Shown here: positions 16,961 to 54,474 of the stretch, piece by piece | How the letters are laid out: each line of letters begins with the position of its first letter | How positions within the stretch are numbered: the stretch's first letter is position 1 | NCBI RefSeq assembly: GCF_003063415.1 | Contig: NZ_NESK01000007.1 | Span: 1-64,000 of the forward strand | Direction of reading: 5' to 3' | Length of the DNA: 64,000 nucleotides | Source: Limnohabitans sp. 2KL-17 | Lineage (GTDB): Bacteria > Pseudomonadota > Gammaproteobacteria > Burkholderiales > Burkholderiaceae_C | Notes under the pieces: model-generated | Database searches by the model: none | What the model was told of the DNA's origin: nothing | Seen by the model: the letters and a program-made list of their open reading frames with translations, nothing else | Program-made: the position numbers and the translations under genes

Positions 16961-18082
16961 TCAGCGTGACCGTCGTGCCTTCACTGCATCAGACAGCACC
17001 TGCAAAACGCCCATGCTGTCATCCCAGCCGATGCAGGCGTCGGTGATGCTCTGGCCGTAAGTCAGCTTTGTCACGTCATCTTTGCCGGCCGTGAACTTCT
17101 GGGCGCCATCGACGAGGTGACTTTCGACCATGACACCGAAAACCTGGCGCGAACCGCCGCTGATCTGCGCTGCGATGTCTTTGGCCACGTCGATCTGGCG
17201 TTCATGCTTTTTGCTGCTGTTGGCGTGGCTGCAATCGACCATGAGAGTGGCTGGCAGCTTTGCGGCTTCCAGCTCCTTGCAAGCTGCGGCCACGCTCTCG
17301 GCGTCGTAATTGGGGGCTTTGCCGCCACGCAATATCACATGGCAATCCTTGTTGCCTTGAGTCTGCACCACAGCGACCTGGCCATTTTTATGCACCGACA
17401 AAAAGTGGTGGCCACGCGCTGCGGCCTGGATCGCATCGGTGGCGATCTTGATGTTGCCATCCGTCCCATTTTTGAAACCAATGGGCGCGGACAGGCCGGA
17501 AGCCAGTTCACGGTGCACCTGGCTTTCAGTCGTGCGAGCGCCAATGGCTCCCCAGCTGATCAGGTCGCCGATGTATTGGGGGGATATCACGTCAAGAAAC
17601 TCGCTGCCAGCAGGCACGCCCTGGCGGTTGATTTCGATCAGCAACTGGCGCGCAATGCGCAGGCCTTCGTCGATGCGGTAGCTCTCATCCAGGTAGGGGT
17701 CATTGATCAGACCCTTCCAGCCCACGGTGGTGCGCGGTTTTTCAAAGTAAACCCGCATCACGATTTCGAGGGTGTCTGCGTATTGGTCTCGCAGGGGCTT
17801 CAAGCGGCGGGCGTAATCCAGCGCTGCAGCTGGATCATGAATGGAACAAGGCCCGATGATGACCAGCAGGCGGTCATCCTTGCCGTGTACGATTTTGACG
17901 ATCGATTGGCGGGTTTGAGAGATCAGCGTTTCCGTGGCCGTACCGGAGATCGGGAAGAAGCGAATCAGATGTTCGGGTGGAGGAAGCACAGTGATGTCCT
18001 TGATGCGTTCGTCATCGGTCTGACCGGTGCGGTCGGCAACATTCGAATACCAGCTTTCAGGGGCTGTGGTTTTGGCGTTCAT
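16961..18082 (-). CDS. aroG: 3-deoxy-7-phosphoheptulonate synthase, class I
   Basis: The 373-residue DAHP synthase is the entry enzyme of the shikimate pathway, joining PEP and erythrose 4-phosphate. Class I features are VIIGPCSIHDP, MRVYFEKPRTTVGWKGLINDP, GARTTESQ, GFKNGTDG and DCSHANSSKKHE. AroF, AroG and AroH isozymes cannot be separated here by eye, so the symbol means the family. GAGGAG lies just upstream of ATG 18082. The 5' leader contains an aromatic-rich leader peptide and a terminator (annotated separately), predicting transcription attenuation by charged aromatic tRNAs. tldD lies upstream on the same strand, 232 bp away. Confidence 0.95.
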   Translation of the reverse strand: MNAKTTAPESWYSNVADRTGQTDDERIKDITVLPPPEHLIRFFPISGTATETLISQTRQSIVKIVHGKDDRLLVIIGPCSIHDPAAALDYARRLKPLRDQYADTLEIVMRVYFEKPRTTVGWKGLINDPYLDESYRIDEGLRIARQLLIEINRQGVPAGSEFLDVISPQYIGDLISWGAIGARTTESQVHRELASGLSAPIGFKNGTDGNIKIATDAIQAAARGHHFLSVHKNGQVAVVQTQGNKDCHVILRGGKAPNYDAESVAAACKELEAAKLPATLMVDCSHANSSKKHERQIDVAKDIAAQISGGSRQVFGVMVESHLVDGAQKFTAGKDDVTKLTYGQSITDACIGWDDSMGVLQVLSDAVKARRSR

Positions 18083-18111
18083 CGTGGACTCCTCGGATAT
18101 AAAAACAGGTC

Positions 18112-18144
18112 AAAAAAAACCGCCGGGCTTTGAGGCTCCGGCGG
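18112..18144 (-). terminator. Attenuator terminator in the aroG leader
   Basis: On the minus strand CCGCCGG (18144-18138) pairs with CCGGCGG (18126-18120) across an 11-base loop, followed by eight T residues (18119-18112), 29 bp before the aroG ATG. An identical CCGGCGG occurs earlier, inside the leader-peptide codons at 18193-18187. It can pair with the first terminator arm instead, giving a mutually exclusive antiterminator. Confidence 0.88.
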
Positions 18145-18167
18145 TGTGTGTCGAGATGTTCGGGTGC

Positions 18168-18245
18168 TTACGCGCTCGCCTCTCGTCCGCCGGGGACTGA
18201 GAACCAAAAATAAAAAAAGTAAAAGAAAGCGCTGCACAAAGACAT
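18168..18245 (-). CDS. Aromatic-rich leader peptide of the aroG attenuator
   Basis: This 25-codon ORF reads MSLCSAFFYFFYFWFSVPGG and ends REASA-stop. Residues 7-15 are nine consecutive aromatic codons: Phe, Phe, Tyr, Phe, Phe, Tyr, Phe, Trp, Phe. Stalling on any of these when charged tRNA is scarce would leave the downstream CCGGCGG (18193-18187, codons Pro-Gly-Gly) free to pair with the first terminator arm. That would let transcription run into the DAHP synthase gene. The layout is that of pheA/trp leaders, but with mixed aromatic residues that fit an enzyme feeding all three amino acids. No strong Shine-Dalgarno is visible before its ATG, and I could not fix the promoter. Confidence 0.85.
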   Translation of the reverse strand: MSLCSAFFYFFYFWFSVPGGREASA

Positions 18246-18314
18246 GGATTCAATGTATCACAGCTTGATGACCGTTCCTGACACGCAGGCACGCGGACAA
18301 ACCCGAAGGCCCGT

Positions 18315-54109: not shown

Positions 54110-54121
54110 TCATTGAAAAGT

Positions 54122-54474
54122 GTGAAGCTCGCCGATAAGCCGGATTCTGTGCACAACGGTTGCCCGTTGTGTGACCGCCATTACTCTGGACCGGGGGTCG
54201 CCCACCCGGCTCGATGCTACCTACCCGCCAACTCACCCCGCGGAACCACAGGGAGAAACAACGCGGCGAACCGCGTCACTTCAGGAAGGCCTACTTGGTA
54301 TTGCTGCGCGTAGAGATTGCCCGTTTCACCCGCACTGAAGCGGCTCGTCTCTGTTGCTCTGATCCTCACCTCACGGTGGAGAGGCATTGCCTCCTACGCT
54401 GTCCTGTGCAGTCCGGACGTTCCTCCAGTGCACCCTTTCGGGTCTTGCACCAGCGACGGTCTGGCGAGCTTCAC
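54122..54474 (-). ncRNA. rnpB: RNase P RNA (class A)
   Basis: The catalytic RNA of RNase P matures tRNA 5' ends. The minus-strand transcript begins GTGAAGCTCGCC and ends GGCGAGCTTCAC, a perfect 12-bp P1 helix. Conserved core elements are GAGGAACGTCCGGAC (CR-I/P4 5' strand), AGGATCAGAGCAACAGA-type CR-II/III sequence, GGTGAAACGGGCAATC, and ACAGAATCCGGCTTAT (P4 3' strand plus CR-V). At about 353 nt it is normal for betaproteobacteria. A strong terminator follows at 54081-54109. Confidence 0.97.

Follow-up and report, generated by a model that had tools for sequence, protein, structure and literature searches.

Upstream of aroG in Limnohabitans sp. 2KL-17, within a window of 64,000 nt (the whole stretch of contig NZ_NESK01000007.1 that was analysed), lies an element that, with a probability of about 0.9 judged from sequence, is a ribosome-mediated transcription attenuator of this gene. 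It combines a leader ORF with codons for the end products of the pathway, an intrinsic terminator before the gene, an antiterminator that excludes this terminator and a downstream gene of the cognate pathway. Very probably, the enzyme is made mainly during Phe, Tyr and Trp shortage. The parts of the element are listed in Table 1; their conservation, their spacing and the coordinated variation of two of its helices come from comparison with related loci.

Table 1. Positions of aroG and of the parts of its leader in the window
Feature	Position	Strand	Basis or remark
aroG, class I DAHP synthase, 373 aa	16961..18082	-	ATG at 18082
Shine-Dalgarno GAGGAG of aroG	18089..18094	-	direct reading
Segment 4, CCGGCGG plus eight T (terminator 3' arm and U-tract)	18112..18126	-	sequence, covariation, folding
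Terminator 3' arm CCGGCGG	18126-18120	-	
Eight T	18119-18112	-	
Segment 3, TCTCG...CCGCCGG (antiterminator 3' half and terminator 5' arm)	18138..18156	-	flanking-position covariation with segments 2 and 4
TCTCG part of segment 3	18156-18152	-	
CCGCCGG, terminator 5' arm	18144-18138	-	
Leader peptide ORF MSLCSAFFYFFYFWFSVPGGREASA	18168..18245	-	read directly; third-base variation pattern in relatives
Leader stop TAA	18170-18168	-	
Segment 2 CCGGCGGACGAGAG	18180..18193	-	predicted pairing with 1 or 3; GGCGG in three frames
Segment 1 TTCTCAGTCC, predicted partner of segment 2 (protector hairpin)	18194..18203	-	MFE
Aromatic sensor codons FFYFFYFWF	18201..18227	-	direct reading; aromatic codons enriched 9-32 nt ahead of GGCGG, within and beyond the family
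Leader ATG	18245-18243	-	
Inferred transcription start (leaderless), A of the leader ATG or adjacent	18245..18246	-	6-nt gap to the -10, few SD matches
Extended -10-like element TGATACATT	18252..18260	-	pattern TGnTAnAnT; recurs in close loci

The aroG product passes the general NCBIfam DAHP synthase model aroFGH (548.2 bits, cut-off 173.2); its score of 560.2 against the AroG-specific model falls slightly below the cut-off of 568, and the name aroG is therefore used loosely here. The upstream gene is tldD, whose stop lies 69 nt before the leader ATG. The leader reads exactly as the preliminary description had it, a minus-strand ORF of 25 codons plus stop (18245-18168) with the run FFYFFYFWF, and the GC hairpin with eight T residues that it placed after the ORF is confirmed as CCGCCGG...CCGGCGG followed by eight T. 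None of 20,000 dinucleotide shuffles of the 133-nt leader yielded an ATG ORF with nine consecutive aromatic codons, or with 8 of 10. Folding of positions 18100-18260 gave a z of -2.28, with 5 of 200 shuffles folding equally well. A generic terminator scan of the window missed the leader hairpin because its loop limit is 8 bases, and returned only an unrelated plus-strand terminator-like site; a promoter scan of the window found no sigma-70-like promoter and no consensus promoter with a -35.

From these parts we infer a course of events that extends from the transcription start through stalling and the 1:2 helix to the direction of the response. Transcription would start at the leader ATG or within about 2 bases of it, and from a start at the ATG the ribosome would load directly on the 5' end. 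Under a shortage of Phe-, Tyr- or Trp-tRNA, the ribosome would stall in the FFYFFYFWF run and cover segment 1; segment 2 (GGCGG...GAGAG), freed by the stalled ribosome, would pair with segment 3 (TCTCG...CCGCCGG), blocking the terminator and allowing aroG to be transcribed. When all three tRNAs are ample, a ribosome at the stop codon would cover segment 2, and the 3:4 terminator would end transcription.

The loci compared were drawn at two distances. The close set consists of the best 80 of 581 aroG loci found plus the window (81 loci), with genera including Limnohabitans, Polaromonas, Hydrogenophaga, Ramlibacter, Acidovorax and Curvibacter; alignment A1 holds 79 of these and leaves out L039 and L071. 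Alignment A2 consists of 79 chosen rows, 19 from the family and 60 others. Counts of frames, codons, flank triples and folding refer to 173 loci (113 family and 60 other), of which 165 are distinct and among which the window stands twice, also as L086; L146 was dropped from parsing for its interrupted T-run, with the leader visible there. An extended -10-like element, an ATG 6-10 nt further on, an aromatic ORF and a CGGCGG-T terminator occur in 79 of the 81 close loci. L071 has the ORF and the terminator, and carries TACATT with no preceding TG; L039 has neither -10-like element nor aromatic ORF nor terminator. A hairpin that outlives its aromatic codons, the case that the preliminary description named as telling against attenuation, was thus not found in the close set, where the two are kept together or, in L039, are both absent.

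The leader appears to be translated, to judge from how its variation falls on codon positions. FWFS is present in 89 of the 113 family leaders, a selection that fixes W, F and S; the codon before it, on which no selection was made, is Tyr in 84 of the 89, with T at base 1 in 85 and A at base 2 in 87, whereas base 3 varies (C 59, T 28, G 2), and the third base of the Ser codon, after TC, is A in 55, T in 21, G in 9 and C in 4. Phe codons occur in 173 of 173 loci, Tyr codons in 168 and Trp codons in 122 (98 of 113 family loci, 24 of 60 elsewhere), so that the claim of a mixed aromatic run stands for Phe and Tyr and fails for Trp in 51 of 173. Many leaders outside the family have no Trp codon, so that sensing of three amino acids could readily be compared with that of two. 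Among family leaders and others alike, aromatic codons peak at codons ending 9-32 nt before GGCGG (50-98% per position). The first base of the stop codon lies a median of 21 nt (range 6-33) beyond the first base of GGCGG and no less than 23 nt ahead of CCGCC. Five Acidovorax-type leaders (L056, L062, L074, L078 and L081) stop right after PGG, inside segment 2 (GGCGGATGAGAG), which would place the terminating ribosome farther upstream than in the window.

Segment 2 overlaps the coding part of the leader, and its frame is not kept: GGCGG or a near-variant lies in frame 0, 2 or 1 in 111, 55 and 7 of 173 loci, respectively. The peptide tails differ between families (SVPGGRE, LPLAEGIDRRC, RPRRDE) while the RNA segment is constant, and reading in three frames implies that the element is kept as RNA. 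Ramlibacter-like leaders (L025, L026, L060 and L076) have GGCGG in a shifted frame, giving NAPAVERSER or HAPAVERSER.

Covariation within close relatives only had no power, 6 of 8 terminator pairs being invariant there, and the order-wide alignment A2 was used instead. In A2, 90.9% of the cells of the 2:3 helix are paired, with 28 double-change cells, and 96.3% of those of the 3:4 helix, with 44; for both helices, no shuffle out of 500 equals the real helix in covariation score, in paired cells or in double-change cells, with related sequences counted separately. Slid versions of the two helices have a lower covariation score and fewer paired cells, but some exceed the real helices in pairs changed on both sides or in pair types. 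These last two measures are not above shuffles, the observed values being equalled or exceeded by 306 and 157 of 500 shuffles for 2:3 and by 73 and 500 of 500 for 3:4. Because the GGCGG/CCGCC/GGCGG core is nearly invariant, the covariation rests mainly on one flanking position and on the closing terminator pair. At the former, the triple X2/Y3/X4, made up of the bases that precede GGCGG in segments 2 (X2) and 4 (X4) and of the base that follows CCGCC in segment 3 (Y3), reads C/G/C at 104 and T/A/T at 22 of the 173 loci (96 and 22 of 165 once repeats are removed), and the other 47 triples are mixed, including 15 A/G/C and 10 T/G/C; 21 of the 79 A2 rows are unpaired at the 2:3 flanking position. 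At the latter, A-U is replaced by G-C in 6 of 79 rows, all of family f4 (L143, L147, L149, L153, L154 and L170), which is a clean compensatory change. Coordinated change, whose presence in the 2:3 and 3:4 helices the preliminary description had put forward as a check, is found in both, and the proposed pairing of the leader CCGGCGG (18193-18187, minus strand, in codons CCC GGC GGA) with CCGCCGG as an antiterminator is supported by 2:3 covariation and by folding.

Energies add to this picture unevenly. Across 80 loci (20 sampled from the family and 60 others), in a test that ignores kinship, the own 2:3 partner beats foreign ones in 64, and in 52 when the tail is taken alone; in the family alignment, only 62.9% of the cells of the second antiterminator arm, CGAGA/TCTCG, are paired. 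The 1:2 helix, TTCTC/GAGAG, is paired in 95.9% of cells within the family; it has no covariation support, and its own pairing is better in only 36 of the 80 loci of the cross-pairing energy test, for which reason we regard it as predicted rather than demonstrated. By a lenient criterion, some 5' pairing of segment 2 is predicted in 171 of 173 loci. The MFE fold of the complete leader contains the terminator in 172 of 173 loci; once segments 1 and 4 are taken out, the antiterminator core forms, again in 172 of 173. A locus had to carry the core motifs to be parsed at all, and part of both counts therefore holds by construction. If segment 1 is masked while segment 4 is left in place, the terminator is the more stable structure in 10 of 12 example loci (2:3 is favoured in L137 and L152); since it mostly wins even then, the choice between the two structures would have to be kinetic, as in the classic model.

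The spacing of the -10-like element points to a leader mRNA that probably lacks a 5' UTR. The 6-10 nt distance from TGnTAnAnT to the ATG in 79 of 81 close loci comes from an ATG choice that had used the -10, and the spacing was therefore determined again with the ATG picked from the peptide alone. On this independent choice, TANNNT is found 6-8 nt upstream in 78 of 80 close loci (14, 40 and 24 at 6, 7 and 8 nt; exceptions L044 and L058) and is rare at other distances. So near a -10 would leave a 5' UTR of about 0-2 nt. Shine-Dalgarno matches of at least 4 nt precede the leader in 19 of 113 family loci, against 83 of 113 for aroG, and outside the family in 6 of 60 against 37 of 60, by a crude measure that 30 of 113 family aroG starts fail too and that takes 79 of the 113 loci from the -10-dependent ATG choice. 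The 6-8 nt spacing and the scarcity of such matches together make the leader probably leaderless. This does not extend to all loci, since outside the family TANNNT stands at 6-8 nt in only 25 of 60 (in 28 if 9 nt is included), while each other position has it in zero to four. If true, a leaderless start would provide a natural system for studying ribosome loading on nascent 5' ends and coupling with RNA polymerase.

The element is widespread. Of 299 family genomes, 289 have a match to covariance model R1, spread over 137 of 141 genera, and so do 70 of 300 genomes of the order; the genome studied here has a single match, and its second class I DAHP synthase (C68) is without one. Model R2, built from the more diverse, order-wide A2, matches in 101 of the 300 order genomes, in 77 of them strongly and at full length (E of 3.3e-6 or better), nine of the 77 being from the family itself; the other rows are weak (E of 3.9e-5 or worse), many of them terminator-only. 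Entry into aromatic synthesis would gain a testable control point in 289 of 299 genomes of the family and 77 of 300 across the order. The models added 96 loci from the family and the order, of which 95 have an aroG match with the leader immediately upstream; in the remaining one, L107, the contig ends before any aroG, and it was dropped. A search of the class gave matches in 29 of 369 genomes, seven of them strong, and four of these seven lie outside the order, before a DAHP synthase. Of the 35 rows of this search, 7 are strong, and 23 of the 28 weak ones cover the model in part; we set the weak rows aside as chance, as only the four strong ones among 27 new loci lie near an aroG match. These four, L179-L182, belong to two families outside the order, and an element of this kind ahead of DAHP synthase there suggests an older origin or transfer.

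As a negative control, we took 21 order genomes picked for lacking an R1 match, one of which (G311) carries a weak terminator-only R2 match. Fifteen of them have a DAHP synthase match, and at their 19 loci, a small control, neither the script nor inspection by eye found an aromatic leader with an ATG start and a terminator of this kind. L221 was flagged for a GC stretch and T-run, without an aromatic run. By eye, L209 shows a hairpin and T-run, and a TTG frame in which 6 of 10 codons are aromatic runs across them; this hairpin looks like the terminator of the neighbouring gene.

Other mechanisms could in principle be served by the same sequence. In one, FYFFYFWFSVPGG would act as an arrest peptide that stalls the ribosome from within the exit tunnel; an aromatic amino acid might be bound in the process, as Trp is with TnaC, and the signal would be something other than codon starvation. 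The strong conservation of WFSVPGGRE in many close relatives is what such a peptide would require; the part after the run, however, shifts its frame across families, in the proportions given above, and changes in sequence, whereas the aromatic codons hold a constant distance to GGCGG, and the logic of a biosynthetic gene suits a response to shortage rather than excess. We consider an arrest peptide very unlikely.

Still less credit goes to the idea that the hairpin merely terminates tldD and that the T-rich ORF arises incidentally from a stretch rich in pyrimidines. The tldD stop is certainly close to the leader ATG, and pyrimidine-rich codons will pair with any purine-rich tail, but a -10-like element stands directly before the ORF in 79 of 81 loci, variation tracks codon positions, some family loci (L053, L060) have by eye another upstream end, and a control locus, L216, resembles a tldD end without having the element. 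Control by tRNA or metabolite binding (a T-box or riboswitch), or by a protein, is the least probable of the three: leaders of these kinds do regulate aromatic genes in Firmicutes, but Rfam, T-boxes and riboswitches included, has no match in the leader at gathering threshold, and the aromatic ORF with three mutually exclusive segments fills most of the leader. Sub-threshold Rfam matches (CC0196, 16.7 bits against 35; ftsZ-DE, 15.9 against 72.2) were rejected.

Ribosome-mediated attenuators are familiar from pheA, trp, ilv and thr of E. coli, and the aroG element resembles these in its short ORF rich in cognate codons, its segments 1-4 and its terminator just before a biosynthetic gene. It differs from them in targeting the first enzyme of the common pathway, in mostly having all three aromatics in one run, in its few SD matches and in its occurrence across many families of an order. 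The preliminary description had set the mixed run against classic leaders biased to a single amino acid; the run itself is there, but ilv and thr are precedents for leaders of several amino acids, and the contrast is softened accordingly.

Attenuation of DAHP synthase genes has already been proposed, for Acholeplasma uORFC-13-1 and for aroF of E. coli and Shewanella. The former (PMC8632094) is a predicted uORF attenuator upstream of aroF with 24 representatives, environmental sequences included; like the aroG leader it precedes a DAHP synthase and has a Phe codon and a terminator, but it has an RBS, and at least one Phe codon instead of a mixed run. For the latter, in another group of bacteria, Table 3 of PMC2659441 lists attenuation via Tyr-tRNA, crediting Camakaris 1980; the same paper counts aroF among the genes for which no regulatory RNA structure has been proposed. 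Excerpts of PMC1173090 describe putative attenuators near tyrA, and in them we recognised none before a DAHP synthase of this group; the word aroG is absent from PMC2965389 and PMC1262725. Among the matches listed by an open-access literature search, which could miss other DAHP synthase gene names, we recognised no aroG attenuator for this group. As far as we have seen, the candidate attenuator is new in its gene, its sensor mix and its probable leaderless start.

For that start, the trpL leader of Sinorhizobium meliloti (rnTrpL) is a precedent: according to PMC7298713, it is a leaderless attenuator whose RNA 5' end is the ATG of trpL, but it is a Trp leader before trpE(G), and its terminated RNA and its peptide act in trans. 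One could imagine by analogy that 70S ribosomes load without a leader on the nascent 5' AUG of the aroG transcript, that the whole aromatic pool is sensed at once (Phe, Tyr and, in most of the family, Trp), and that the terminated leaderless RNA of about 134 nt or the hydrophobic peptide acts in trans, as reported for rnTrpL/peTrpL; we hold this combination to be unlikely. Elsewhere in the window, a full-length bacterial RNase P class A RNA gene lies at 54120-54472 on the minus strand.
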